Below, one piece after another: positions 27,002 through 47,713 of a stretch of DNA of 64,000 nucleotides. Position numbers and translations under genes: made by a program. The notes beneath the pieces are model-generated. The model was not told the DNA's origin, made no database searches, and was given only the letters and a program-made list of their open reading frames with translations. The first letter of the stretch is position 1. The number at the start of each line of letters is the position of its first letter. The stretch is from Pirellulales bacterium (lineage in GTDB: Bacteria; Planctomycetota; Planctomycetia; Pirellulales; JALHPA01): assembly GCA_033762255.1 (NCBI GenBank), contig JANRLT010000017.1, forward strand, positions 1 through 64,000, in the 5' to 3' direction.

Positions 27002-27561
27002 ACGGATGTGCTCCAAAATGCTGTAAGCTATTGCCATAAAATACTTTACTGCATTTTTAAGCTGCCTTTATGGGCATTGATAACATAAATTACCTTTACC
27101 TTAGTTTTATTTTACTACCCACAATTTGCCTAGGGAGCACAATTTTTCTACCTTACCCAGCCCTCCTGATCGCAGAATTCGTCAATTTTCCCAGAGGGGA
27201 TTGAACGAATCTGCCTCGATTTGGCACCTATTTCTGACTTTTGCGGCACATGGGGCAATTGTGCCATTCCTAGGGGCAACTTTCAGGGGCAAATCCTCCC
27301 GCAGCCCTCAGGGTAGGGAGGCTTGCGTTCAGGCGGTGGTATTTACTAGGGGGGAGTGATTTTTCGGTGTGGAGCGTGGATGGGAGGTTGGTCAAAGTTG
27401 TTACAATAAAACTCGGAGCCATCATAACTTTGATACAATAAAGCTTGCCCAGGGTGAATGTGACGCAATAAACAAGCTGCTTGTTTTTCGTCCGTCACCT
27501 ATTTAACCCGGGCCAAAACCGCCATACGCCAGCTCCTTTTTTCCCATACGTAGTTCGTCAT
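27002..27561. other. Divergent regulatory gap before the ECF sigma operon
   Basis: The gap separates minus-strand glgA from the plus-strand sigma gene. It contains three evenly spaced CAATAAA boxes (27397-27472). No gene is supported. Confidence 0.55.
27397..27472 (+). promoter_or_regulatory. Three CAATAAA boxes at 30-32 bp spacing
   Basis: GTTGTTACAATAAA (27397-27410), TTTGATACAATAAA (27429-27442) and ATGTGACGCAATAAA (ending 27472) repeat every 32 and 30 bp, about three helical turns. They end about 90 nt before the sigma-factor start. The spacing suggests protein binding on one DNA face, perhaps autoregulation. This is inference. Confidence 0.5.
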
Positions 27562-28137
27562 TTGAAAGTTGACATCGACCAAGCGATTGAGCAGCATTTT
27601 GCCCGGATTCACCGTACGGCGATTGTCCTGACGGGTAATCCCTGGGATGCGGATGACTTGGCTCAAGAAACCTTTTTGGTCCTGGCCAGACAAGCGGTTG
27701 CGCAGGACAGCCCGGCGGATTTTGCCGGACGCAGCCAGTTATCCACCTGGTTGTATGGCATTTTGCTGAACTTGGAACGCCGTTTGCGCCGCCGCTGGGG
27801 AACTCAACGGGAAAAACTACGGGTGATTTGGAATGAACAAGAGACACCCCGGACCGAGCCAGCCGCCGAAAGCGCGCTTGAGGTTTCCGAATGGAAACGG
27901 AGTTTATGGTCGTTTGTATCACGCCTGCCCGAACAACAGCGCCAGGCGGTGGTGCTACGTTATAGCGAGCACCTTTCCTACGAGCAAATCGCAACCGTGT
28001 TAAATTGTCCCCTTGGGACGGTGAAATCCCGCTTGTTTCATGGACTAGAAAACCTGCGCAAGCTGTTAGAGGCGGAAGGAGCCGACACCCGCGCGATACC
28101 CCGGCATCCTACCCAGGATCAAGCCCATGTCAGCTAA
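27562..28137 (+). CDS. ECF RNA polymerase sigma factor
   Basis: About 191 residues. Region 2 reads ARIHRTAIVLTGNPWDADDL, then AQETFLVLARQ; region 4 has LPEQQRQAVVLRYSEHLSYE and a helix-turn-helix ending CPLGTVKSRLFHGLENLRKLL. It directs RNA polymerase to a stress-type regulon. No ATG lies between the upstream stop and region 2; a TTG at 27562 gives the most natural length, and a TTG at 27481 is the alternative. The 3-prime end overlaps the next gene by 11 nt, so the two are probably translationally coupled. Confidence 0.87.
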   Translation: MKVDIDQAIEQHFARIHRTAIVLTGNPWDADDLAQETFLVLARQAVAQDSPADFAGRSQLSTWLYGILLNLERRLRRRWGTQREKLRVIWNEQETPRTEPAAESALEVSEWKRSLWSFVSRLPEQQRQAVVLRYSEHLSYEQIATVLNCPLGTVKSRLFHGLENLRKLLEAEGADTRAIPRHPTQDQAHVS

Positions 28138-28897
28138 TCAACACCCTCCGGAACAATCCCTGACGGGGTCCTGCCCCGACTGTCAACAGACGACCGATCC
28201 GACCTTTGCGGAAACGGCCGTATGGCCCCCGCTTTTGGGTGTTTTGGCGGATCAATTGACCGCCGATTCCCGGCGTTTGGCGTTAATCTATCCAGCGCCC
28301 CCGTGCAACCTGGCAACTGCCACCGCCGCTGCTCCCGCTAAAACAGATTTGGCCGGCGGGTCGGAAGTAAATCATCCCCTTCAGCCTGCCATGCATGCTG
28401 AGCCGTCTTTTCCGCCCGTGCCCGCGGTTATGGTCCATCCGCGCGAACATCATTCAGCTTCGTTAGGGTCGCGGCGTTGGCCGTGGTTTGCTGCCGCCAG
28501 TGTGGCGCTAATCCCCGCCGCCGGAATGCTGTGGGTTGGTTGGCAGACGGGCGGGATGGAGAATATTGCCAATTTTGGTGGGCATTGGTCGGCCCCGGTG
28601 GAAATTAGCCACTCTTTTCCGCCTCCCGCCCCCTCAGAAATCGCCAATCCCCAACCCCAAACTGCCACAATCATGGCCACTTCCTCGGCCAGCCTCCCCC
28701 CGATCAATGAAAACCTTCCCCTCCCCTCCGGAGCCGAGCCCGTCTCATTTCATCCCCCTGGCAGAACGGGACATGATCACATTCCCACACATACCCCTCC
28801 CACGCGGGTCTTTCAATCGCTAAGCGCCCCGCAACGCGAAGCGTTTTTAGACCTCTTAGAGGCACAAGCGTTGCAGCTCGATAGTTTGTCGATTTAG
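28127..28897 (+). CDS. Single-span membrane protein, candidate sigma partner
   Basis: 256 residues. A single transmembrane helix lies at about 118-140 (WFAAASVALIPAAGMLWVGW), with a Cys-containing cytoplasmic N-terminus (SCPDCQQT) and a Pro-rich region beyond the membrane. This layout and the 11-nt overlap with the ECF sigma gene fit an anti-sigma factor, but the standard zinc-binding His-x3-Cys-x2-Cys pattern is not seen. The function is inferred from position only. Confidence 0.68.
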   Translation: MSANQHPPEQSLTGSCPDCQQTTDPTFAETAVWPPLLGVLADQLTADSRRLALIYPAPPCNLATATAAAPAKTDLAGGSEVNHPLQPAMHAEPSFPPVPAVMVHPREHHSASLGSRRWPWFAAASVALIPAAGMLWVGWQTGGMENIANFGGHWSAPVEISHSFPPPAPSEIANPQPQTATIMATSSASLPPINENLPLPSGAEPVSFHPPGRTGHDHIPTHTPPTRVFQSLSAPQREAFLDLLEAQALQLDSLSI

Positions 28898-28961
28898 CTC
28901 AAATCATTATTTTTTAATTTAATGCCGACCACCTCCTAAAAATAGATCGTCCGGTTCGACC

Positions 28962-30335
28962 ATGATTGCACGAATATTTAATTCGCTTTCTCCTCGGGCG
29001 CGCCTGGGCTGGATAATACTGGCGTTGAGTTGCGCTTACCCCGCCGCGGGCATTTTACACGCGGAGGAATCCACCGAATCTGCCGCGGAACAACTGGTGG
29101 CCGCCACGGTTACGGTACGCCTGGGTGTGGTCAAGGAAGCCCCCGCCGAGCAAATTGGCACTCCCGCCGCCGCATCGCCAACAGAAAATTCCACCACAAC
29201 GCCGGAAAGCGCCGCATCCAAGCCCCAGAACCCCCGCCCGGCCGAGGAAATCACCGTTTGCAGCGGAGTCTCTTTGGGCCGGGGGTTGATTGTGACTTAT
29301 TTTGAACCGCCCGCGGATTTGCTGGCCCAGGCTCCCCGTGTACGGGTGACGTTGACGGGCGGGGAACAGGCCACGGCGCATATTCGCGTGGTCGATCGTT
29401 ACAGCAATTTGATGTTGCTGGAAATCGCGAATCAACAACTACCGGGACTAAAACTGGCGGACAAACTACCCAAAGTGGGCAGTCCGGTGCTGACGGCGGC
29501 TGGCGCGGGGACAGAGCAACCTGCCGTGTCGCTAGGCATTTTATCCGCCACGGACCGGTCGCTGGTGGGGACGGACCTGCCGCCGGTGGTGCAGTGCGAT
29601 CTGCGCACGACCGAGACTTCTTGCGGCGCGGGGGTGGTAAATCGTTCTGGCGAACTACTGGGAATCTTGGTGGCAACATCCCAACCGGGACAACATACCA
29701 CTGGTTGGAGCTACGCCCTGGACATGCCGCATTTAGCGCGTTTGCTCCGTTCGCATGTGCCAAATAAAACGCTGGAACTTAAACGGATGCGGCCGATGGT
29801 GGGCTTTACCCTGGGTGCGGGAGAAGAAGAAGGCGTCGTTGTCGTGGAGCGGGTGCAGGCGGAAGGTCCCGCCGCCGCCGCGGGGATTTTGGTGGGGGAC
29901 AAGCTGGTTGAAACCGAAGGCATCAAGATTCGCAGCGCGTATCAGGCGATTGATTTGATTTTGCACAAGCAGCCGGGAGATACCATTCGTCTGCGGATTG
30001 CCCGGGGCGGCGACCACCGCGATCTGACCGTGCGGTTGGCCGGGGACGCCGTGACCCTGGTGGGACGCCCCAATCCCGCGACGCCCCAGGGTGTGCAGGT
30101 AGGCTCCGCGGTCAAGGCCACCGTGCGCGAAGGAAAAATTGCGGTACAAAACGGCAACCATACGGCGGAAGTCGCGGTCGACGGCCAGGGCGCTCCGCGG
30201 CGCAGTCCCGGCGACGAGGTGGAAATGCTGCGGTTGCAATTGCAAGCATTTGAACGGGTGTTACTAGAACTGCAAAAAGAAAATGCCACTCTCCGGGCGG
30301 AAAACCAAAAACTGCGGACAACCCCCGCAAAGTAA
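28962..30335 (+). CDS. Secreted trypsin-fold/PDZ pseudo-protease with coiled coil
   Basis: 457 residues. A signal peptide (1-34) leads to a Pro/Ala-rich linker and an HtrA-like beta-barrel: CSGVSLGRGLIVTY, VVDRYSNLMLLEIAN and TTETSCGAGVVNRSGELLGI. At the positions of the HtrA His, Asp and Ser these read as Phe/Tyr, Asn and Cys, so protease activity is unlikely. A PDZ domain follows at about 280-365 (GVVVVERVQAEGPAAAAGIL, then VGDKLVE). The end is a leucine-zipper-like coiled coil (about 420-450). Third in the sigma operon, it may sense or scaffold envelope proteins. Confidence 0.82.
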   Translation: MIARIFNSLSPRARLGWIILALSCAYPAAGILHAEESTESAAEQLVAATVTVRLGVVKEAPAEQIGTPAAASPTENSTTTPESAASKPQNPRPAEEITVCSGVSLGRGLIVTYFEPPADLLAQAPRVRVTLTGGEQATAHIRVVDRYSNLMLLEIANQQLPGLKLADKLPKVGSPVLTAAGAGTEQPAVSLGILSATDRSLVGTDLPPVVQCDLRTTETSCGAGVVNRSGELLGILVATSQPGQHTTGWSYALDMPHLARLLRSHVPNKTLELKRMRPMVGFTLGAGEEEGVVVVERVQAEGPAAAAGILVGDKLVETEGIKIRSAYQAIDLILHKQPGDTIRLRIARGGDHRDLTVRLAGDAVTLVGRPNPATPQGVQVGSAVKATVREGKIAVQNGNHTAEVAVDGQGAPRRSPGDEVEMLRLQLQAFERVLLELQKENATLRAENQKLRTTPAK

Positions 30336-34499: not shown

Positions 34500-34865
34500 G
34501 GGCGTTAACCAGTGGCCAATATGCCGGGCGGGGGGGTGCTAGCACCCATTTACGGCAAACGGGAAAAAGAGCAGTAAACCAAATATCGTCCGCATCATCC
34601 CCGCGGCTATCATCTGATAGCATATCTTACACCAACAAAACCGCCAGGGCGAACATTTGCCTATGGCGGGGGGGATAGGATTGCCTTACTCTCGTGGGTT
34701 GATTGGCATAGTGGCAAATGGGCCGCGATAGTAAACTTTGCGGCACTTATCTGAATGACGCAAATCCGCGGCGACGGAAAGGCTAATAATTTTACTCCCT
34801 GGGGGAAAAATTAGGGCGGCCTGTTTGCGGCATTGATTGATTCAAACTTTTACCGGCTGCCAAGC
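34500..34865. other. Intergenic gap with a 14-bp palindrome
   Basis: No gene is supported. GGGTGCTAGCACCC at 34534-34547 is a perfect palindrome 34 nt upstream of the molybdoprotein start and could be an operator, but nothing else supports that. Confidence 0.45.
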
Positions 34866-36026
34866 ATGGTTGCTGACACCCACAGAGCACTGTCGACTCG
34901 CGCTTGGACCCGCGTTTGTTGTTGGATGGGGTGCGCGTGGATTTGGGCATCGTTGAATCTATCCGGCGCGTTTGCCCAACACTTTCGCTGGGCCCATGAT
35001 CATGGTCATTTTGGCGCGTCGTCACCCACCGCCGTGGTTCATGCGCAAGAAGGCGTGGTACAGATCGTGGAAACACCCGTCGTGGTGGGGGGAGAAGAAT
35101 CATACGGCGTGTTGGGACCGCCCGTGGGTTGGAACCAAGATGCGCAAGTCTTGCCTCCGTACTCGGTGATGGCTCCCGCCAGTGGCGCCGCCGTGGCGGC
35201 GGCACCGGTCGCGTCGGCCAGCGAGCCGTGGGAATTGCACTATTTGCCGCTGGGGACGATCTATCGCGCGTATTTGGCGGATGTCAAGGAATCGCGGCTC
35301 AGCGCGCGGTACTTTGCCGATCAAAATCGCGACTGGTTTTTTGACTTTACCCTGGGGGGCAGATTCGGCTTGTTGCGATATGGCACGCGCGACGCGCTGC
35401 TGCCCCAGGGGTTTCAGATCGACGTGGAGGCGGCGGCCATGGTCCGCACCAATCCCCAGGAATCGCTCGATTTAGAGTCCAGCGACTATCGCGCCGGCAT
35501 CCCCCTCAGTTGGAGCAACGGCAACTGGCGCACCAAGCTGGCCTACTATCACGTTAGCTCGCATGTGGGGGATGAGTTTCAATTGCGCAATCCCGGCTTT
35601 ATGCGGTTGAATTACCTGCGCGACTCCGTGGTTTTAGGGCAGGCTTGGCAGGCCACAACCGATTGGCGCCTTTATGCCGAGGCAGAGTATGCCTTTAATA
35701 CCGACGGCGGGGCCGAACCGTGGCTCTTTCAGTTTGGCGTGGAGTACAGTCCCTTTGTCCCAGGAGCAAACTCTCCCCGCTGGCAAGCTTTTAACGGTAC
35801 CGAGGAAGTCTTTGGAGCCCCCTTCTTGGCCGTCCACGGCAACATTCGCGAAGAATTTGATTACAGTGGTACCATCATCGCCCAGGCGGGCTGGCAATGG
35901 CGAAATCTGCGGGACGGCCGCTTGCTGCGCATCGGCGGCCAATACCTCAACGGCAAAAGTGCACAGTACCAGTTCTTTAATCAGCTTGAAGAGCAGTTGG
36001 GCGTAGAAATCTGGTACGATTTTTAA
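34866..36026 (+). CDS. DUF1207 outer-envelope protein
   Basis: 386 residues. A signal peptide (about 1-38, ending SGAFAQ) is followed by a His-rich stretch and the DUF1207 domain from about 125 (WELHYLPLGTIYRAYLADVK, FFDFTLGGRFGLLRYGTRDA, WYDF at the C-terminus). Alternating hydrophobic strands with a terminal aromatic residue suggest an outer-membrane beta-barrel, which is inference. The family is widespread in planctomycetes and uncharacterised. The ATG at 34866 is chosen over a TTG at 34833. A possible terminator follows. Confidence 0.85.
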   Translation: MVADTHRALSTRAWTRVCCWMGCAWIWASLNLSGAFAQHFRWAHDHGHFGASSPTAVVHAQEGVVQIVETPVVVGGEESYGVLGPPVGWNQDAQVLPPYSVMAPASGAAVAAAPVASASEPWELHYLPLGTIYRAYLADVKESRLSARYFADQNRDWFFDFTLGGRFGLLRYGTRDALLPQGFQIDVEAAAMVRTNPQESLDLESSDYRAGIPLSWSNGNWRTKLAYYHVSSHVGDEFQLRNPGFMRLNYLRDSVVLGQAWQATTDWRLYAEAEYAFNTDGGAEPWLFQFGVEYSPFVPGANSPRWQAFNGTEEVFGAPFLAVHGNIREEFDYSGTIIAQAGWQWRNLRDGRLLRIGGQYLNGKSAQYQFFNQLEEQLGVEIWYDF

Positions 36027-36377: not shown

Positions 36378-39300
36378 ATGAGGGCTGTCCTTTTTTTATC
36401 GCATGCGACTGTGATTTGGCGTCATCCTTTGCTGTTGCGGATCGGGCCGTGGCTCCGGGGGGCATGTTTTGTCCTGATCGGCCTGGTGGCATTATGGACG
36501 ACCAGTCTTTTGGCCCAACCAGCGGGTGATCGACCGTCGTCGGCGGTGTCGTCCCCCGCACCAGCGGCGGACCAAACTCAGACAAACTCCGACAGCGCTC
36601 GGGGGCCATCCGCCGCGGATGCGGCGCTCAGCGAAAAGATGCCGACCCCCGGGGTGACCATGCCGCTTCCCCCGGTGCCCAAGAGTGAATCAGAGGGGGA
36701 CTCCCCCCTGCGTGACTCCGTCGATCAAGATGCGGGATCCGCACCCGGTCAGGAACATGCCAAATCACGTTTGGACGCGGGCGCAGCGGCCGCAAACGAG
36801 AATTCCCCGGGAAGCGGCGCGTCACGACAGGCCCCCACCAATCCAAAAGAATTAGAAATGGCCCCGCTTGCGGTTCCAGCGGCATCGACAGCGCCGGGAA
36901 CAGTTGAGCCCGGGGCGATGTCCCCCGTGCCAAATTTAACCCAGGCCGAATTTCAAGCCTGGAAAGGAAACCAGGGAGCGGGAGGTCTAGGGGGCCAGCC
37001 TTTGGCCACATTGCAACAAGTCACCCTGATTGGTCAAACCCTGCGGCAAGCGGTGGAACTAGAAGCAACGCTGGAAATCCACGTGCATGAATCTAACAAC
37101 GGCTGGGTGAGCATTCCCCTGGGTTTGCGCGAGGCGGCCTGGCAAGCCCCGCCAAAATATAGCGGGAACGGCGAACACATCGTGCATTTTGATCCCGAAG
37201 CGGATGAATATCGTTGTTGGATCAAAGCCGCTCCCAACACGCAACATCGGTTGACAGCGCGGCTATTGCTGCCATTAACTGGGAGTGGACCGGAACGGCG
37301 GTTAGAGTTTAACTTGCCGCTGGCGGGGGCCACTTCCCTCAAGCTGCTCGTACCAGCCCCCGTGGTCACGGTCTTGGAATCCTCCGGTACGCCCGATCCC
37401 GAAATTACCCAAACCGCCGAAAATCAGTCTCAAATCGAAGTTCTGGGCCTAAAGGGGGAATATGTTTTGGCTTGGCGGGAATTGGCCGCCAACGCCAATC
37501 AAATGCTCCCGCAAATCGAAGCCACCGGCGCGCAGCTCATTCGAATCGACGGAAGAACTATTTCCACGGCGGCGCGATTGATCTTACGCGGGTACGGCGC
37601 CGAATTTGAACGGGTGCGGGTCAAGCTGCCCCCCAAATCGATTTTGACCAGTGGATCGGGCAAGGGTTATGCCGTTTCCACGGTGGCGGGAACAAATGGC
37701 GAAATCGTGGAAGTTCTTTTTGATGTCAAAACCTTGGGACCGATCGAGGTGCGCCTGCAGACCGAGAGGATTTTGGACGTCAACAATCCCAACGAAAACC
37801 TGGACGTGGCAGGATTTCAGGTGCAAGAAGCCCTGCCGCATCGCCAGGGAGGGCAAATTGCCGTTAGTGTTGTCGGGGATTGGCGATTAACTTGGGACAA
37901 GCAAAGCCGGGTTCGTCCGATTGCCGCTTTTGGCGAATTGACCAACTCGCGGGATTTTAGCGCCATTTGGGAGTATGTCGGCCAACCTTATGAGTTGGAA
38001 CTGCGGGTCGCTCCCCGACGGACGGTGCTGGCGGTCGATGCCGCCCACCAGCTGCGGCTAAGGGAACGGGAGGCCCTGCTCGAGACCACATTAAAGTACA
38101 ACATTCGCGGGGCCCGCGCGGGAGCGGTCAGCGTTGATCTGCGGGGATGGAATTTGGAAGAAGTCAGCCCCATCGATCTGGTGAACTCCGCCGCGATCGA
38201 GACCGAGGGGTCGGGGCTGGTGCAGATTCCCCTCGCGGCGCCCGCCTTGGGAAATTTTGAATTAAAACTCAAGGCCCGCCGCAACGACATTCGCCCCGAG
38301 CGGCAAAACGCCATCCCCCTGCCGGTCGTGGTGGCGGACATTCCCGGTAATTTAACCCTGGAAGTGACCGCCGCCGAAAATCTCGAGTTAGAACCCGTGC
38401 CGGGACAGCATCAGCAATTATCCCAATTACTCAACACCGAGTTGCCCGTGAATCCGGGGGCGATATCGTGGAATTATCGGCTGGAAGGGCAACCCGCCCT
38501 ATTCTCCGCTCGTCTGCTTAACCGTCCTAAAATTGTGCAAGGGGTCAACCTGGCCGAATGCCGGCTTTCTCCCACGGAGTTATTCGTCCGTCAAGACTTG
38601 GAATTTCATGTGCCCGAGGCCCCCATCGCGCAACTGCAAGTCGCCGCGCCGGAAAGCCTTTTGCGGCAAACAACCCTCGCCTGGGAATTAGACGGCCTCC
38701 CCGTCAAGCCCAGCGGCCCCCCCGCCTGGGATGCGCCCGGCAAACGTTGGGTCTGGACATTTTCGCTCCCCCAGCCGCGCGGAGGCGTCATACCCCTGAC
38801 CGTTAGCTACCGCGCTTTGCAAAATTTCACTCGCCAGGCTACCGCCAAGCTGCAATTCGCCTTGTTTGTCCCCATCGCCGATCAGCATTCGCGGCAAGAG
38901 GTTTCCCTGCAGGCCGCGCCGGGGTTGCGTTTGGGCACCGAAACCCTAAATGCCGATTGGAAAGTCTTGCCCTTGGGGGAAAGGGCGGATGGAACGGCTA
39001 TCCGCCTGGTGGCCGACCAACCTCGCACCGATCTTTCCGTAACCGTGCAAACCACCAGCGCCCCACGGGCGGGGTGGTCGATTGAACGTGGTTGGGTCCA
39101 AACCTGGATCAGCGAAAATGAACGCCAAGAGCGGGCCGTGTATCAACTGCGTGGTTGGGCTTTGCCAGAGAAAATTCTTTTGCCCTCAGGCGCTAGCGGG
39201 TCCGACGCCCAAGTCCTGTGGAACGGGGCGGCCCTGGCCGTGGAACTATCCGGCGACAGTGAATTGCGTCTCCCCACAACTTTGCCTTTTTCCCTTGGGA

Positions 39301-40034
39301 CAGAGTCTGGTCTGGCGGCGCCTTTGCAACAATTGGAAATTCGCTATCGCTACACGACGCCCCCCGGATTATGGAGTCTAGAGTTTCAGGCCCCGCGGCT
39401 GGTGCCCGGCGCATGGCATCAACAGTTATATTGGCAAATCCTCGTCCCGCCCCGATGGCATCTGATTAACGATCCGGCCAATTGGCAGCCCGAGGCACAT
39501 TGGAATTGGCAAGGGGGATATTGGGGACGCAGTCCCACATTGACCCAAACCGAATTGGAAAATTGGAGCGGCGCCGTCACTGAAAATCCACTCCCCGCCA
39601 GCGTGAATTCGTATCTGTTCAGCGGTATTGGCGAATTGGACCATGCCCGGGCATGGTTCGCCCCCCGCTGGTTATTGACTTGGGTGGGAGGACTGGTGGG
39701 TTTTGGCCTGGGTGTGGCTCTTTGGCGGTTTGCCATTTTGCGACATCCCCTTAGTTTGATCGTGGGTGGCCTGGTGTTGGTCAGTTTGGGAATGGCGTGG
39801 CCCGAGCCATTGATCTTGGGGGGACAAACCTTGCTTGTGGGCTTGCCGCTATTATTGATTGCGGGCCTGTTGCGCAGAATTTTAGGCGCGCCGCCGACAC
39901 CGCAAACCACCGCTACCCCGGAACGCGGTTCCAGCCTCAATTCCCAACTATTAAAGCCCCTGGGAGGGGCTCTTCCCCATTCCGGCTCGACAGCCACGGT
40001 TAACCTGCCGGTTACCATGGAGCCGCAAGCATGA
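36378..40034 (+). CDS. Giant secreted, membrane-anchored protein A (unknown)
   Basis: 1218 residues. A signal peptide (about 20-46, ending LLAQPA) leads to a low-complexity Pro/Ala/Ser linker (to about 190), about 900 residues rich in beta strands, and two or three transmembrane helices at about 1095-1171 (WLLTWVGGLVGFGLGVALWR and others). The bulk would lie in the periplasm, anchored by its end. I recognise no catalytic domain. The strand pattern (YRCWIKAAPNTQHRLTARLL, then FNLPLAGATSLKLLVPAP) recurs in the next gene. It overlaps that gene by 4 nt (ATGA), so the two proteins are made together and probably form one complex. Confidence 0.85.
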   Translation: MRAVLFLSHATVIWRHPLLLRIGPWLRGACFVLIGLVALWTTSLLAQPAGDRPSSAVSSPAPAADQTQTNSDSARGPSAADAALSEKMPTPGVTMPLPPVPKSESEGDSPLRDSVDQDAGSAPGQEHAKSRLDAGAAAANENSPGSGASRQAPTNPKELEMAPLAVPAASTAPGTVEPGAMSPVPNLTQAEFQAWKGNQGAGGLGGQPLATLQQVTLIGQTLRQAVELEATLEIHVHESNNGWVSIPLGLREAAWQAPPKYSGNGEHIVHFDPEADEYRCWIKAAPNTQHRLTARLLLPLTGSGPERRLEFNLPLAGATSLKLLVPAPVVTVLESSGTPDPEITQTAENQSQIEVLGLKGEYVLAWRELAANANQMLPQIEATGAQLIRIDGRTISTAARLILRGYGAEFERVRVKLPPKSILTSGSGKGYAVSTVAGTNGEIVEVLFDVKTLGPIEVRLQTERILDVNNPNENLDVAGFQVQEALPHRQGGQIAVSVVGDWRLTWDKQSRVRPIAAFGELTNSRDFSAIWEYVGQPYELELRVAPRRTVLAVDAAHQLRLREREALLETTLKYNIRGARAGAVSVDLRGWNLEEVSPIDLVNSAAIETEGSGLVQIPLAAPALGNFELKLKARRNDIRPERQNAIPLPVVVADIPGNLTLEVTAAENLELEPVPGQHQQLSQLLNTELPVNPGAISWNYRLEGQPALFSARLLNRPKIVQGVNLAECRLSPTELFVRQDLEFHVPEAPIAQLQVAAPESLLRQTTLAWELDGLPVKPSGPPAWDAPGKRWVWTFSLPQPRGGVIPLTVSYRALQNFTRQATAKLQFALFVPIADQHSRQEVSLQAAPGLRLGTETLNADWKVLPLGERADGTAIRLVADQPRTDLSVTVQTTSAPRAGWSIERGWVQTWISENERQERAVYQLRGWALPEKILLPSGASGSDAQVLWNGAALAVELSGDSELRLPTTLPFSLGTESGLAAPLQQLEIRYRYTTPPGLWSLEFQAPRLVPGAWHQQLYWQILVPPRWHLINDPANWQPEAHWNWQGGYWGRSPTLTQTELENWSGAVTENPLPASVNSYLFSGIGELDHARAWFAPRWLLTWVGGLVGFGLGVALWRFAILRHPLSLIVGGLVLVSLGMAWPEPLILGGQTLLVGLPLLLIAGLLRRILGAPPTPQTTATPERGSSLNSQLLKPLGGALPHSGSTATVNLPVTMEPQA

Positions 40035-43000
40035 TCACGCGCGTGGTGGGGACGGGCTGGTGGAAATTGACCAAAGGGTGGCCGGGATTGCTGGCGCTGC
40101 TCGTCTGGTTTGCCGGCGCATGTCTCTTGGCCAATGCCCAGACGTCCGATTTTAGCAAGGAGCTTTTTCCCCCGGCTCCTCCGTTGTTCAGCACCGAAAA
40201 GACCCCCCGTCCCCGGCCGATCACTCCGCCAGCTTCGTCTCGTACTCCCAGTAGTGCCACAACGACTAACGGTGCCACGACGACATCCAGCCTGAACACG
40301 TTGGGGATGGCCGCGCTGCCACCGGCTCCCGCCAGTTGGGGTGGGGACTTGCCTGCACAATTGCGGCGGATCGATGTGCCGGGGGAAAGCCACTCCCCCG
40401 CGGATTTTACTCAACGGGGCTACGTGGCGGTGGATCGCGAGCAATTTGACAAGGCATGGAAGCAGTGGCTATCCCGCGCGTCAGCCCAACCTCGCGGCTC
40501 GCGACGGCAGCTTGACGATCATCCCCCCGAGGCCCGCCAAGGAGTCATCCTCGAATCGCTGGCTTGTGACTGGGACTTGCGGGAAGAAGAACTGGTCGGA
40601 ACGATTGAAGGCCAGGTCCGGTTGCTTCAGGACACCCCTTGTCTGTTGACATTGACGCCTTGGCCTTGGATCACCTCCGCCGGTAGCTGGCGGGATTCCC
40701 CCGGGGAATTGATTGCCGGCATGAACGCCCGGGGAGAATATCAAATTTGGGTCCCCGCTAGCGGGACTTTTCGCTTATCGGTCAAATGGCCCGCCCAGGT
40801 GGTGGACAAGGACCTGGTATTTGCCGGTCGCTTGCCCGCGGCGTTGTCGCGGACGCTTAGTCTGTCGATGCCCGCGATGACCCAGGCGCAGACCACGGCT
40901 TTGGTTCCGGTAAAGCGCGAGGAACTACCCGAGAACCGCGTGCGCGAGACCTGGCAACTGGCCGGCGAAGAAGATTTTCAATTGCGGATCGGGCGGCAAG
41001 CCCAGGTGGAGGGGGATCAGCCCCAGGCATTCGCGATCCGGCCGACAATTATCTATGAAGCGGGCCCTCAGGGGCTGCAACTGCTGTGGGAAGGCAAATT
41101 AGTGGGGCCAAATTTGCCCAATAACCGGTTATTAGTAAAGTGCGACGCTGATTTGAAAATATTGGAAGTAAAGTCGGGAACGCAAAAGTTGGGATTTGAA
41201 TTGCTGGCGGCGGACGCGGCGGGGGGAAGCACCTACGCGCTGGACATGCCGCGCCAGGAATTGGGCAAGATGTTGCAAATCCTGGCGGCGGCTCCGCTGC
41301 ACACCGGCGACTTGTGGCAGCTACCGCAATTGCATTTGGAAGAAGTCCTCTTGCAAGAAGAAAACTGGCAACTGTTAACCCTGGCTCCCTTTGCATTGGA
41401 TCAGTTGGAGCTGCGCGACTGTCGCCAAACACTGGCCGAAACACTGCGCGGCAAACTCCCCGGCGAAGCCATTCATTTACAGACCATCGGCAAAGAGCCG
41501 CAAATTCTTGCCTTGTATCGTTGGCAGCAGGCGCGCGGCGCTTGGTCCAGCGGCTTGGAGTTGACCAGCGCTGACAATGACGCCATTCGCGCCACTTGGA
41601 CCGCCGAAGTTGAATTAGAACAGGGCGAACTGGCCCGGTTAGAGATCGAAGTGGCCGATTTTTGGAATGTCGAATCCCTCGAAAGCAGCCCCGCGGATTC
41701 CACGGGCAGTTGGACGCGGACCCATCAGGACCACGGGGTTGACCTGTATAGCCTGCAATTTGCCCAACCCTTGCGCGAACGGCGCTTGCTGCGGTTTGTC
41801 CTGCGCGCCACGGCTCCCCGGGCCAGCGGCGCGGCACAGATTTCCGCCGCGCAGTTGGATCTGGCGCGGGTGGTGGGTCTGCCCCGGCAGGCGGGCTATT
41901 TATCGCTCAACTTAGGGGGGACCTGGCAACCGCGGTTTTTACCCGCCCCCCCCAAAAAACTCGATCCCCGGCAATTGACCACCGCCGAATTAGCCCTATT
42001 TGGCGAAGAGACGCCGGAGCAGTTGTACGCCTGGCCCGGCGCGGCGGAGGGATTTGCCTTGCGCCTGGAACGGACGACACCCGCCACCTTGGCCGAACTC
42101 GAAACTCGCATACGCGTGGGGCAATCGGAAATCCACGAGGAATTTCATGTCCGTTTTCCGGCGGGGACACCCCATCCGCGCCGTTTGACCCTCTTACTGA
42201 CCGAATTGCACGAAACGCCGATTACCTGGCGCTTGCACGGCTCGCGCGCCCCCTTGAACGCATGTCGCCGTTTATCCATTCCCGAACAACTACAGCTTGA
42301 CTGGCCCATGACGGGAGAAGCCTGGGAATTGACGCTGCCGACCTCGCGCGGGGAGACATGGGGATTAATTGGCGAACGTCGCCTGCCGTTGGCGGGCGAA
42401 GCCCGGCCCACGTTGTTGGCGTTGCCGGCGGCCTTTGCGCAGCGGGGAGTATTAACGGTCTCTTCGCCGCGCAATCCGGCCCCCGTGGTGCGGGCCGAAC
42501 AAGCGGTCATTTTGCCCTTGGAGGCCGCTTCGGCGGGGGAAGAACCCCTGCTGGGCCGCTGGGAATACTTATCACCGACCCGCTCTCTTCATTTGCGCGA
42601 TTCCCCTATTCGCATTGTGTGCGAGGGAGAATTATCCCGCCAGGCCGAGCCTCGGCAACCCGTGATCTGGCTGGCGGAACTGGAAACGTTTTGTTCGGAA
42701 CAACCGGCCTGGCTACAGCGGATGACCTTGTCGGTGGAGCAATTTGGCCCTTCGGAAATTCCCGTTCAAATGCCCGCGGGCCGCACGCTTCAAGCCGCGC
42801 TATGGAATGGCCAACCCCTGGCATGGAGCGGCGATCCCCAAGAGCCGCGCCTGGTCAAACTTTCGCTCCCCGCATCCGACCGTTATGGAAGCTTGCAGTT
42901 ACGCTGGACCACTCCCCGCGCTCGCCACTGGTTGGGACTAAAGGCGCAGCCGGAATGGCCCGAACTGCGGATAACTCCCCTCGCGCGACGATGGAAAATT

Positions 43001-46000
43001 TGGTCTCCCCCCGAGTTGACTCCCTTGTGGGGTAGGGACTGGCCTAGCCGGGATGGGCGAGGCGCCGACACGCGCTGGAGCCAAATTTTCAGCCATTGGA
43101 GGCAACAACCGGGGACGCCGCTCTGGGGGCTGGGGAATATTTTTAGCGAATTTGCCCCGGAACAAACAGCTCTCTCGATCCAGCCAGAGGTTTTTTGGCA
43201 AAAGTTGTCACAGCAATTATCCCGGCAGCGTAATGCTCAGGCGGGGGGAGTCACTCCGGATACCCTGGCCACTCCCGTACCGAACCGGCAGCCGCCGTCC
43301 GCCAGTCCGGGACCGCGCTCCACTTGGGGCCAATTACTCCCCGCTGCTTGGCGGGACGCGGCGCTATCCCAGGACGACTTGCCGGAATTATGGATCGATC
43401 AAGACGCGTTTTCGACACTGGGCGTGTTTCCCGATTTACCCCCGCTGCCCCCGTTAAAAGCAGCCAGTTCACTGACCAAAGCCCCCAATCAGGCGACCAC
43501 TTCCCCGTTTGTCCAAAGCCCGGGGGAATTGCCAGCTAAATTCATTTTAATTCAATTTCCCACGGGCTGGTTGTTAACCACGCGGGGACAATTGGTCCAG
43601 TGGCCCACGGCGGTCCCACTGGCCCGGGGGGAACGTTGCTACGGATTTCCCGTGGGCCAGGAGCTTTCCGCCCTGGCCGAATTTCAACGCATCCAGTCAC
43701 TCGCTTGGCCGACGATTGTTCCGCTGACAAATTGGCAAGCCGCTCCCACCACCACGACCGATTCGTGGCAAGCGGGACCGGCCTCGACAACATTTCCCGC
43801 GGATGCCACACACGGCGCGGTTTCGGCTTGGCTGCCGAGAATTGTCCCCGAAACCTCCTCCGGAATTTTACTGGTTCATCAACCGCTAGTGTTGGCCATC
43901 GCCTGGGCGGGCTTTTTTTTATTGCTAGGGACCTCGGTGTGGTGGCTTCCCTGGCGTGCTCCCTTTAAGGTGCTGTTGTTAACGGCGGGACTAGTCAGCC
44001 TGTGGTTGTTGCCCTGGGGTTTGATCAGTTGGGGCCAGGCGTGGCTGGCATCGATTATCGTCGCGCAACTTTTACGCTGGCTCCAATTTTGGCCTTGGTG
44101 GGGTTGGACCGCCCAGCCAAATAATTCTGCCGCACGCGCGGTGCCTGGCATGGTCGCGGCCAGTTGGGCCATCGCCCTGGGATTGGGGTGCGAAGTGTGG
44201 GTTCTTTTCGCTGCTCCCGCCATGGCCCAGCCGGAACCGGTAAACATAACAACGGAAGTGGTGCTGGATGCGCCGGCGATCAGTTTGCGTCCGTCAGCAA
44301 TTCTGGTTTATGCGCGGGTCAATGCCCAACAACAGGCGGTGGATAATGTCCTGTGGGTACCGGCGGAATTGTGGAAACAACTGCACTCCCCCCCCCAGCC
44401 GCCTTCCACGGCCCGCACGGATTACTTATTACAAAGCGCGGAGTACGAGGGATCATTGCGGCGCATGCAGTCCTCTGATCGTCCGCGCCCCGGTCGATGG
44501 CAGGCCGATTGGCGAATCCACACTTTTCTTGCGGAGCAATGGGTGGGGTTGCCCTTTCCAGCGCGGGGGGCGGTGTTGATTCCGGATGCGATTCTCCTGG
44601 ATGATCAGCCCGCCAGTTGGCGCTGGTCCGCGGATGGAGGGGAATTACAGTTTTTTGTGCGCGCGCCGGGGGGGCATCGCCTGCGAGTGGGATTTTTGCC
44701 CCGGATGCGCGAATCAGGAATGCAACCCGGGTTAGAGCTAAGCCTGCCCCGCGCGCCGCGTAATTCCCTGCGCATCACGGCCCCCGAGGATTTACGTTGG
44801 AGTTCCAACCTGAAAGATGAAAAAACCTTTGCCGCCCAACAATCAACCGCCCCGTTGGAGTTCAGCGCGCGGGAAACGTTGCGGGTGGATTGGCCCAACC
44901 AGGAGGCGGCCAACGCCTTGGTCGTGCAGGCGGAGTTGGAATTATTACAATGGTTGCGGGTGCGTCCTGGGGCAGCGCAGCTAGAGGTGCGCATCCCTAT
45001 TCGGGTGGTGGCGGGGCAATTGCGCGGGATCGAGCTGGTGGTGGACGAACGTTTGCAACTCCTTACCCAAGTCGGCTCCGCGGACCTTCCCTGGCGGGCG
45101 ATGCGGCGGGGACGGACGTTGCAACTGGAATTTCCCCAGCCCATCCAAGATCGAGCCACCGTGCAACTGTCATTTTTAATCCGGGACTTTGCCGGCTTGG
45201 GAATACTGACTCCCCCCCAATGCGAAGTCATCGGCCAAACCATCAAATCCGCGTGGTTGTTTGGCTCGGTGGATAGCTCCCTCAACCATCGCGAATTGTC
45301 CCAGACGCCGCAGGTGGAAATCCCCCCCCGCGAAATTCAACGTCTTTGGCCGGAGGAATCCACCGCCCCGCAGTTTGTCTACAACTGGCAAAAACCACCA
45401 TCTGATTGGCGGTTAGAAATCTCTCCGCGCGATCCCCAAATTTCCCTCGCTCGGGAATCCACCCACATCGCCCTGGCCCGTCCTTTGGCCAACTGGTCCA
45501 GCACCTTGTCACTGACGATTGCCGACGGCGCTGTCTGGCGATTGGCGGGCACACTCCCCACCAACTTTGAGCTGGAACACGTCGTGGTCCGGCAAGACCG
45601 ACAGACGGTCCCTTGTCGTTGGGCACGGGGCGCGCCGGGACATTTTAGCCTGTTTTTTGAATCTCCCGTGGGGGGTGAACTGATTGTCGCCCTGCATGGA
45701 CGTCAAAGCCTGGCTGAGACGAGGGGCACTTATTGGTCATGGATAGGTGTTCAGGAACAAACGGCCCAGGTCCGCGAACTACTGGTCGAACATGCGGCAA
45801 ATTTGCATGCCCAGGTGCAAATACCCGCTGGCTTTACTAAACTTACCGCGGCGGAGACGACCGCGGCGCGTCAAGCCGCGCAGCAGGCTACAGACGAATC
45901 TTGGCCTAGTGCCCTCTCGGCGTTGATACCCTTACCTGGCCTGCGCGCCATCAATGCCGGTTCCCCGGTCAGGCTAGAATGGCGGGCTAATTCTCCCACC

Positions 46001-47713
46001 GGCCAGATCCAGGTCATTACCCAGCTCGACCGCCGGGGCGATGGGTGGTGGGTGGTGTGGGATTTGCTAGGGCAGTTACCCCAGGGAGAGCTTGCCCAAC
46101 TGGAATGCCAGCTCCCCGCTATCTGCCGCGAATTGGGCGAATTATCCCCAAACACGCCCATCGAGTTGTCTCCCGCGGTGCCAGGGGGAGAGCGATATTT
46201 AACGCTACGCCCAGCAACAGCTTGGCAGGGAACCTGGCGGCAGCGTCTGACCTGCCGACTTAGCAAGAGTCCGGAGCAGTTATTACAAGTTCCCCGGTTG
46301 CAAATATTTGGCGGCTTATCCACGCCCGAATTGTTGGTCCTTCCCCGCCGCTGCCTGGGCAAGCCGGTGGATTGGCAATTGCCCAACTTAACGCCCGCCA
46401 AACTACCGTCGGATTATTTGCCCGCCTTGTCGGATACGAGCCAGCCCTTGGTGTTTCAATTAAATCGGGACGGGGGGGCGGTCAGCCTGCGGGCCACGGA
46501 GCAAAGCGCCGACCAACCGCGGGTCAGCTTGGCGGATCACGCGGTTTTTTGGGATGGTAACACGGGATACAGCGGGAAAGTGATATTTTATTTAGAACCG
46601 GCGGGCCAGGGGACCTGCATCCTGGAATTACCCCCCGGAGCGGAATTGCGCCAGGGGATCACCGATGGGACGTGGCTACCCTGGAAGAGATTGGGGGATC
46701 GGCGTTGGGAAGTGCGCCTGGCCAGCGCGCTTGTGCCGCAACAACTTAGCGTGGTTTATACACTGCCCGCATTAAACATTGACGAACACAACTTGCTCCG
46801 TTTTGCGGCTCCTTACATTCAGGATTGGCCGGTGCAACGCGCGCTTTGGACTGTCGGCCTGCCAGGGACCGCCGGGCGATTGCGGTTGACCACGGGAGAA
46901 ATGCGCACGCCGGAACAATTGCAAATCGAACGGTTGGCCGCGACGATAGCCATTTGTGAAAAACATCTACCCGCCCTGCGCGAGCTGGCCCCCGCGGAAA
47001 AACGCCTGTGGAGCGATCCCTGGCGGGAACGTCTGCGGCAAGCCCGGGGTATGCTGGAAATGGCCGTGCGCGGGCGGCAGGACGATCCCCGTTACGAAGT
47101 CACCACCGAGGAACTGGCCCGCTTGGCCGAACGCATGAGCCGATTACAAACCGCCGTTCCCGAGCTAACAAGCGAACCCGCCGCGCTCCCCGGCATGGCC
47201 CCCCTGTCCCCGGCGAATGCCGTAGGCTGGCCGTTATGGTCCGCGGTCGATTTGCAAATCAGCCAGGCCGTGGTGGCAGCTTCCCCGGATTCACCCGCAA
47301 CCAGCGCGTTGGCACGGTTGATGGCCCGGCCCATCAGCACCGCGCGACAACCGGAAGCTGACGGCAATTATCCCCCCACCATGACTGCCCGCCTGGAACC
47401 GCCGACGGTATCCAATCTTGCCGCCAGTTTTGGGGGATTGGCGGCGATGTTGCTGGCCACCACCGCTTTATCGCTGACGCTGGCCCGCTGGCCTGAATGG
47501 AACCTTGCCAGCCGGCATCCCTGGTTGGTGTTTTTGCTAGCGGGCTGCGCCTGGTGGCTGTGGCTGCGCCCGCGGGAGATTGCCGTGGGCCTGCTGGTTT
47601 TGGGAGTGTTGGCTTATTTGGCCGAAAATCAACGTTTGCGGCGCTGGTGGCAAAGCCTGCCACTGTTTCCGCCGCGTCCGGGTTGGAGGATGACGGGGCG
47701 CGGCGAAAAATAA
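40031..47713 (+). CDS. Giant secreted, membrane-anchored protein B (2560 residues, unknown)
   Basis: One continuous frame of 2560 codons. It appears to be a fusion of two units, each built like protein A: signal-like segment (about 18-36), beta-rich region, membrane helices at about 1284-1357, then a second signal-like helix at about 1375-1396 (WVLFAAPAMAQPEP), another beta-rich region and C-terminal helices at about 2467-2525. Strand motifs such as YQIWVPASGTFRLSVKWPAQ and LQFFVRAPGGHRLRVGFLP recur between units. Trp and Arg are frequent; no enzymatic motif is seen. A long helical stretch near 2300-2380 precedes the last anchor. Function unknown; an envelope scaffold is a guess. Confidence 0.87.
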   Translation: MITRVVGTGWWKLTKGWPGLLALLVWFAGACLLANAQTSDFSKELFPPAPPLFSTEKTPRPRPITPPASSRTPSSATTTNGATTTSSLNTLGMAALPPAPASWGGDLPAQLRRIDVPGESHSPADFTQRGYVAVDREQFDKAWKQWLSRASAQPRGSRRQLDDHPPEARQGVILESLACDWDLREEELVGTIEGQVRLLQDTPCLLTLTPWPWITSAGSWRDSPGELIAGMNARGEYQIWVPASGTFRLSVKWPAQVVDKDLVFAGRLPAALSRTLSLSMPAMTQAQTTALVPVKREELPENRVRETWQLAGEEDFQLRIGRQAQVEGDQPQAFAIRPTIIYEAGPQGLQLLWEGKLVGPNLPNNRLLVKCDADLKILEVKSGTQKLGFELLAADAAGGSTYALDMPRQELGKMLQILAAAPLHTGDLWQLPQLHLEEVLLQEENWQLLTLAPFALDQLELRDCRQTLAETLRGKLPGEAIHLQTIGKEPQILALYRWQQARGAWSSGLELTSADNDAIRATWTAEVELEQGELARLEIEVADFWNVESLESSPADSTGSWTRTHQDHGVDLYSLQFAQPLRERRLLRFVLRATAPRASGAAQISAAQLDLARVVGLPRQAGYLSLNLGGTWQPRFLPAPPKKLDPRQLTTAELALFGEETPEQLYAWPGAAEGFALRLERTTPATLAELETRIRVGQSEIHEEFHVRFPAGTPHPRRLTLLLTELHETPITWRLHGSRAPLNACRRLSIPEQLQLDWPMTGEAWELTLPTSRGETWGLIGERRLPLAGEARPTLLALPAAFAQRGVLTVSSPRNPAPVVRAEQAVILPLEAASAGEEPLLGRWEYLSPTRSLHLRDSPIRIVCEGELSRQAEPRQPVIWLAELETFCSEQPAWLQRMTLSVEQFGPSEIPVQMPAGRTLQAALWNGQPLAWSGDPQEPRLVKLSLPASDRYGSLQLRWTTPRARHWLGLKAQPEWPELRITPLARRWKIWSPPELTPLWGRDWPSRDGRGADTRWSQIFSHWRQQPGTPLWGLGNIFSEFAPEQTALSIQPEVFWQKLSQQLSRQRNAQAGGVTPDTLATPVPNRQPPSASPGPRSTWGQLLPAAWRDAALSQDDLPELWIDQDAFSTLGVFPDLPPLPPLKAASSLTKAPNQATTSPFVQSPGELPAKFILIQFPTGWLLTTRGQLVQWPTAVPLARGERCYGFPVGQELSALAEFQRIQSLAWPTIVPLTNWQAAPTTTTDSWQAGPASTTFPADATHGAVSAWLPRIVPETSSGILLVHQPLVLAIAWAGFFLLLGTSVWWLPWRAPFKVLLLTAGLVSLWLLPWGLISWGQAWLASIIVAQLLRWLQFWPWWGWTAQPNNSAARAVPGMVAASWAIALGLGCEVWVLFAAPAMAQPEPVNITTEVVLDAPAISLRPSAILVYARVNAQQQAVDNVLWVPAELWKQLHSPPQPPSTARTDYLLQSAEYEGSLRRMQSSDRPRPGRWQADWRIHTFLAEQWVGLPFPARGAVLIPDAILLDDQPASWRWSADGGELQFFVRAPGGHRLRVGFLPRMRESGMQPGLELSLPRAPRNSLRITAPEDLRWSSNLKDEKTFAAQQSTAPLEFSARETLRVDWPNQEAANALVVQAELELLQWLRVRPGAAQLEVRIPIRVVAGQLRGIELVVDERLQLLTQVGSADLPWRAMRRGRTLQLEFPQPIQDRATVQLSFLIRDFAGLGILTPPQCEVIGQTIKSAWLFGSVDSSLNHRELSQTPQVEIPPREIQRLWPEESTAPQFVYNWQKPPSDWRLEISPRDPQISLARESTHIALARPLANWSSTLSLTIADGAVWRLAGTLPTNFELEHVVVRQDRQTVPCRWARGAPGHFSLFFESPVGGELIVALHGRQSLAETRGTYWSWIGVQEQTAQVRELLVEHAANLHAQVQIPAGFTKLTAAETTAARQAAQQATDESWPSALSALIPLPGLRAINAGSPVRLEWRANSPTGQIQVITQLDRRGDGWWVVWDLLGQLPQGELAQLECQLPAICRELGELSPNTPIELSPAVPGGERYLTLRPATAWQGTWRQRLTCRLSKSPEQLLQVPRLQIFGGLSTPELLVLPRRCLGKPVDWQLPNLTPAKLPSDYLPALSDTSQPLVFQLNRDGGAVSLRATEQSADQPRVSLADHAVFWDGNTGYSGKVIFYLEPAGQGTCILELPPGAELRQGITDGTWLPWKRLGDRRWEVRLASALVPQQLSVVYTLPALNIDEHNLLRFAAPYIQDWPVQRALWTVGLPGTAGRLRLTTGEMRTPEQLQIERLAATIAICEKHLPALRELAPAEKRLWSDPWRERLRQARGMLEMAVRGRQDDPRYEVTTEELARLAERMSRLQTAVPELTSEPAALPGMAPLSPANAVGWPLWSAVDLQISQAVVAASPDSPATSALARLMARPISTARQPEADGNYPPTMTARLEPPTVSNLAASFGGLAAMLLATTALSLTLARWPEWNLASRHPWLVFLLAGCAWWLWLRPREIAVGLLVLGVLAYLAENQRLRRWWQSLPLFPPRPGWRMTGRGEK

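Follow-up and report, generated by a model that had tools for sequence, protein, structure and literature searches.

What do two adjacent genes specify that together take up 11 kb of a planctomycete genome and encode proteins in which no domain could be recognised? We addressed this question for a gene pair in a 64,000-nt stretch of DNA from a Pirellulales bacterium (the window), which is part of a 123-kb contig of a 5.47-Mb genome. In the Planctomycetota the periplasm is enlarged, cell division proceeds without FtsZ, and numerous genes of unknown function, some of them essential, are restricted to the phylum (PMC10632474, PMC11958385); for Planctopirus limnophila, transposon essentiality data are presented in PMC10632474. 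The initial annotation, made from the letters of the DNA, had described two genes overlapping by 4 nt whose products, of 1218 and 2560 residues, are giant, secreted and membrane-anchored, and the coordinates of the reading frames bear out the number of genes, their overlap and both lengths:

36378..40034, + strand: gene A (subunit A), 1218 aa; begins with a signal peptide and a low-complexity linker, continues in beta-sandwich repeats and closes with three membrane helices and a Ser/Thr-rich tail
40031..47713, + strand: gene B (subunits B1 and B2 in one reading frame), 2560 aa; its start overlaps the stop of A in the shared sequence ATGA

Since the long frames of A and B stay open across dozens of genomes at 20–30% identity, chance ORFs can be excluded. 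At each of the 60 loci that we examined, gene B comes directly after gene A in the same orientation, often with the identical 4-nt overlap, and conservation of the pair, a point raised by the initial annotation, extends across the class. Because of the overlap and this conserved adjacency, we infer that A and B may be co-transcribed as an operon; promoter and terminator scans of the locus gave signals at or below the shuffled level.

We detected A in 27 of 30 near relatives (one of the 30 being the window's own genome), in 132/148 genomes and 77/83 genera of the order, and in 100/119 genomes of the class, and across the phylum 22 of 49 genomes were matched, 19 of them convincingly. The 16 order members without a match, together with the incomplete family member G001, were re-searched with a deep profile. 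Even so, no credible A match was obtained in complete single-contig genomes, among them G024, G071, G075 and G142, and the system can thus be lost. The complete genomes without any A include several of one family, and the system is therefore not a universally required part of the envelope. Blastopirellula marina was the only named relative among the matches of our genome-collection scans, and in a genome of the same order the A protein shares 76% identity with its counterpart in B. marina DSM 3645. At three loci (L035, L100 and L119) the A frame is present but was hidden by a longer overlapping ORF in automatic gene picking; an apparent 3471-aa A+B ORF in L119 was dismissed as a frame artefact, A keeping its own frame of ~1200 aa. 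Variant forms of B were also seen: a class member (L122:7089-10598) has a B of only 1169 aa, seemingly a B1/B2 hybrid missing most of one unit, and at L099:9399-16635 B lies in two overlapping frames (413 and 2021 aa), reflecting a frameshift or a sequencing error. One family carries a second, paralogous pair (A'B'). The A'B' system was found in L106, L108, L117, L142 and L143, of which L106, L108, L142 and L143 group in a tree with systems of other classes, and B' has additional membrane helices with ~220 residues between them.

Neither protein could be assigned to a described family. Searches of Pfam, NCBIfam, PADLOC and PDB sequences returned no credible match for A or B, the NCBIfam and PADLOC searches (the latter including the anti-phage defence models, to which nothing matched) covering the two window proteins. 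Pfam scans of 19 B homologues were equally without a credible match, and profiles built from homologues had no match among PDB sequences. More specifically, Big and the other Ig-like families of Pfam matched neither A or B nor the B homologues; we likewise obtained no match to Pfam peptidase or macroglobulin families, and none to ribophorin in Pfam at E <= 1 (A and B) or E <= 0.1 (the 19 B homologues); a Foldseek comparison with viral proteins yielded nothing specific. The earlier impression that a recognised domain is lacking therefore survives, no known family accounting for any part of the length, and the protein family and its gene system are undescribed in every database tested. In line with the initial annotation, which had seen nothing catalytic, the units contain no conserved catalytic motif: HExxH does not occur in A and occurs once in B, at residue 702, where it is not conserved among relatives; the GxMEN motif is absent from A and B, and the CGEQ thioester motif was not found.

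The anatomy of the two proteins was delineated from hydrophobicity, profile alignments and structural models, and comprises the following segments:

36378..36515, + strand: A signal peptide (residues 1-46), with a hydrophobic segment at 22-40 and a predicted cut ...SLLA↓Q (family consensus ...AQ)
36516..36941, + strand: A disordered Pro/Ser/Ala-rich linker (~47-188), of low conservation; AlphaFold pLDDT < 50 over model residues 1-135
36999..39665, + strand: A exported beta domain (~208-1096) of tandem ~175-aa repeats, from self-hhalign offsets and the repeating DSSP strand pattern
39666..39887, + strand: A membrane helices (~1097-1170), from hydrophobicity (1098-1163) and model helices 1050-1122; among the most conserved windows of A
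39888..40031, + strand: A predicted cytosolic tail (~1171-1218), Ser/Thr-rich, from composition and motifs
40031..40138, + strand: B N-terminal signal peptide (residues 1-36), with a hydrophobic segment at 16-34 and a predicted cut LLANA↓Q
40430..43810, + strand: B1 exported beta domain (~134-1260), from alignment with A 187-1167 (hhalign E 1.3e-36)
43865..44080, + strand: B1 membrane helices (~1279-1350), from hydrophobicity and sequence
44261..46900, + strand: B2 exported beta domain (~1411-2290), from alignment with A 133-1158 (hhalign E 2.5e-33); AlphaFold pLDDT 79.9
46910..47155, + strand: B2 juxtamembrane helical hairpin (~2294-2375), from model helices 924-1005
47414..47632, + strand: B2 membrane helices (~2462-2534), from model helices 1092-1162 and sequence

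The signal-like segments noted earlier are thus found at A 22-40, B 16-34 and, a second one in B, at 1375-1393, and the C-terminal membrane helices at A 1098-1163, B 1279-1350 and the C-terminus of B. Of the description "secreted membrane-anchored", export and anchoring stand, but "secreted" does not; exported and inner-membrane-anchored is the better term. An AlphaFold model of A (residues 48-1218, from 58 sequences) has a mean pLDDT of 80.2 (638 residues reach at least 90) and consists of an N-terminal disordered linker, repeating beta-sandwiches and C-terminal membrane helices; the model of B 1371-2560 (mean pLDDT 79.9) resembles it and adds a helical hairpin before the membrane. Both models agree with the "beta-rich" character first read from the sequence, and their pTM of 0.48–0.49 does not fix how the domains are arranged, and hence neither the length nor the shape of the chain. 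Self-alignment with hhalign gave repeat offsets of ~171–178 and ~347–357 residues, and the DSSP strand pattern of the A model recurs (e.g., model strands 519-540/567-588 and 687-710/743-767). When the two models were searched independently with Foldseek, Ost1/ribophorin I was among the best matches of each (E 5e-9 for A and 2e-11 for B2, prob 1.00), followed by M1-aminopeptidase N-terminal domains, integrin alpha legs and, for A, the inter-alpha-inhibitor heavy chain; TM-scores to known structures were low when the chain is taken as a whole (0.08–0.17 by query length), so that the similarity applies at the domain level only. From the models we predict that in each unit an M1-N/ribophorin-I-like beta-sandwich of ~175 residues is repeated about five times.

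The initial annotation had guessed that B is two fused units, and profile comparisons among A, B1 (B 1-1370) and B2 (B 1371-2560) uphold that guess. All three pairs aligned collinearly by hhalign, i.e., A with B1 at E 1.3e-36 over 937 columns, A with B2 at E 2.5e-33 over 969 columns, and B1 with B2 at E 5e-35 over 874 columns, whereas reversed and column-shuffled profiles, used as negative controls, gave E > 0.03. Consistently, the A profile matches both halves of several B proteins of the second system and from outside the class, at ~100–230 bits each. Two genomes from other classes of the phylum (G249 and G250) carry three separate single-unit genes in tandem and in the same order. In a tree of 60 units, the first of these genes groups with A, the second with B1 and the third with B2 (SH-aLRT 98, 98 and 99); this tree has long deep branches and groups split by the two systems, and we rely on its clade placements and not on its root. 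We are highly confident of the three-unit architecture of A, B1 and B2, and the simplest reading is an ancient set of three subunits whose order is fixed and of which the last two became fused in the window's class.

If B is such a fusion, the segment that joins its halves becomes of interest:

44123..44227, + strand: B internal signal peptide (~1365-1399), with a predicted cut APAMA↓Q behind A1399, as judged from an alignment of 57 B proteins across the junction

Along the junction, three membrane helices, which should leave the chain on the inner side, are followed by a short polar stretch, a hydrophobic segment and the APAMA↓Q site, and in the 57 aligned B proteins it retains the make-up of a signal peptide with little other sequence conservation. 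Using the C-terminal membrane helices of A (n=58) as a control set, we found the hydrophobic core to be followed by [AS]xA in 42/57 B junctions versus 15/58 A helices (Fisher p 3e-7), and the -3/-1 rule satisfied in 54/57 versus 32/58 (Fisher p 8e-7), both p-values being too small because related sequences are not independent. Since the halves of B are joined by a conserved, signal-peptide-like segment bearing an AxA site, it is quite likely that signal peptidase I cuts B into B1 and B2. Rather less probable is that B stays uncut, either as a double-unit protein that re-enters the membrane at 1375-1396 or with B2 arising from an internal start such as M1374. Cleavage is, after all, a prediction; a Met, residue 1374, stands where the hydrophobic segment begins, and fusion alone would secure a 1:1 stoichiometry without any cut. 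However, AxA is far commoner at the junction than at other membrane helices, B2 has a gene of its own in some relatives, which indicates that the halves function apart, and relatives show no visibly conserved Met at the position of B 1374.

Genes beside A–B provide few constant companions, the recurrent ones being limited to an inositol-monophosphatase (IMPase)-family gene, a GNAT gene and one family of unknown function, with no kinase or FHA protein among them. In about 26/60 loci the IMPase-family gene immediately precedes A in the same orientation, and a ~250-aa planctomycete family (cluster c1) lies divergent to it in 18/60 (e.g., L024:3898-4848 and L028:15710-16459); two c1 members scanned against Pfam had no match. 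In relatives the IMPase and the divergent ~250-aa gene flank A–B, whereas in the window's genome (G000) they sit together at contig C30:63688-65687 (loci L144, L146 and L151), away from A–B, so either A–B or the flank has moved. Because of this separation the IMPase linkage is loose, and the IMPase is probably not a required partner. The GNAT gene is found downstream in the window and at 12 other loci and is not constant, and PMT, OEP, VWA, HEAT and PQQ neighbours were rejected as partners, none being conserved beside A–B. At one locus, A is almost touched by the gene directly upstream (L135:14196-19889), whose 1897-aa product carries a YfbK/VWA domain at its C-terminus. Within the window, a DUF1207 protein (34833-36026) is encoded directly upstream of A on the same strand, about 350 nt away, and is not conserved there in relatives. 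Farther upstream, a Sigma-70-family (probably ECF) factor, a small unknown gene and an HtrA-like trypsin-PDZ protease stand in a row (27481-30335), possibly an envelope-stress cassette; this trio is likewise not conserved beside A–B in relatives.

As to what the three units do, the lack of a conserved active site, their size, their repeat architecture and their wide conservation lead us to favour a structural role. Our leading, still tentative, reading is that A, B1 and B2 are inner-membrane-anchored, non-catalytic envelope proteins serving as a scaffold or tether. Each unit would be exported via its N-terminal signal peptide, hold about five beta-sandwiches (~900 residues) outside the inner membrane, and finish with three membrane helices and a short tail on the inner side of the membrane. 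B1 and B2 would be translated as a single chain, which signal peptidase I probably cuts at the internal signal peptide, and the A–B overlap could couple translation of all three units. Gene order and homology make it likely that A, B1 and B2 form one periplasmic complex; translational coupling and a cut precursor would fix the proportion of the subunits, probably as a 1:1:1 complex, and the most likely role of such a complex of long beta-domain stalks would be to tether, space or organise the planctomycete envelope.

It is doubtful that the complex is instead a helper of export or maturation, whose beta-sandwiches keep newly exported proteins close to the inner membrane so that they can be folded, glycosylated or transported onward, in the way that ribophorin I acts beside the Sec translocon. 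For A as for B2, the best structural match is Ost1/ribophorin I, and a PMT-type glycosyltransferase, a HEAT-repeat protein or an outer-membrane efflux protein is found nearby at a few other loci. These neighbours are missing at most loci, however, and the fold is common to many unrelated proteins and comes with no sequence relation to OST subunits.

A further alternative concerns the tails. Since three membrane helices precede it, the A tail would lie inside the cell, and its S+T content is 24.4% over the A tails versus 12.5% in the whole protein. The pattern ST-x-T occurs in 17/58 A tails (shuffle mean 2.8), in the window's order, and [DEG][SPI]T-x-[LIVYF]-R in 10/58 (shuffle mean 0.2), the latter in orders of the class other than the window's, both patterns having been chosen after the tails had been read. 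The Thr motif was seen in the window (39888-40031) and in L103, L105, L107, L111-L115 and L118, and similar GST-x-x-[FY]-R stretches occur in some B1 tails. Judged by sequence, the A tail motifs may mark phosphorylation or docking. A transmembrane sensor, whose outer domains read an envelope or external cue and signal it to the Thr motif of the inside tails as a target of FHA proteins or of the Ser/Thr kinases, which are numerous in planctomycetes, would be in keeping with the doubled Ser/Thr level, with motif counts above those of shuffles and with the B1 stretches. We nevertheless regard it as improbable, given that the motif is not alike between orders and that neither a kinase nor an FHA protein recurs in the neighbourhood. 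Similarly unlikely, taken as a whole, is the most far-reaching version of the scaffold reading, i.e., a heterotrimer of giant M1-N/ribophorin-like stalks, produced partly as a polyprotein that signal peptidase cuts and controlled via phosphorylated tails, that organises the planctomycete envelope.

That the units are degenerate M1 peptidases, alpha-2-macroglobulin-like inhibitors or adhesins is very improbable: M1 peptidases, alpha-2-macroglobulins, integrins and clumping factor A do figure among the Foldseek matches, but a conserved HExxH, GxMEN, CGEQ and Pfam peptidase or macroglobulin matches are all lacking, the macroglobulin matches are of low Foldseek probability (0.28–0.35), and three C-terminal membrane helices fit the inner membrane rather than the outer surface.

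Each genome with the system devotes 11 kb to three large envelope proteins that most members of the class retain and that no Pfam or NCBIfam family covers. The predicted fold, topology and processing site turn two anonymous genes into a testable complex, and B may be one of few bacterial fused precursors that carry an internal signal peptide, predicted to be cut, and that have unfused counterparts in nature. What appears new, against the databases tested, is the family and the gene system; we do not claim a new biochemical activity. Neither the repeat fold nor the principle of an internal signal peptide is new in itself, and we know of no instance of their combination in a giant three-subunit family.

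Among known proteins, Ost1 (ribophorin I) carries two beta-sandwich repeats on the export side and one C-terminal membrane helix. The A/B units, two of which have it as best Foldseek match, share with it tandem M1-N-like beta-sandwiches, placement on the export side and C-terminal membrane anchoring, as predicted; they have no sequence similarity to it, however, and possess about five repeats and three membrane helices. Ost1 is a subunit of the eukaryotic oligosaccharyltransferase, and A–B has no conserved glycosyltransferase neighbour. The N-terminal domain of M1 aminopeptidases has the same fold as the repeat unit (Foldseek prob 1.00 to LTA4H, IRAP and ERAP2), at the domain level only: the A model superposes on LTA4H with an rmsd of 5.1 over 217 columns and the B2 model matches IRAP, APA and ERAP2, but A and B have neither a peptidase domain nor a conserved zinc site. 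Alpha-2-macroglobulin and bacterial Ig repeat proteins are likewise long beta-sandwich arrays, from which A and B differ in having no Pfam match, no thioester motif and weak Foldseek probability. The closest parallel to the design of B is the fbcH cytochrome b-c1 precursor of Bradyrhizobium, a bacterial fusion with an internal cleavable signal peptide that yields two subunits; the fused-precursor design is alike, whereas the proteins are unrelated and the cleavage of B is predicted.
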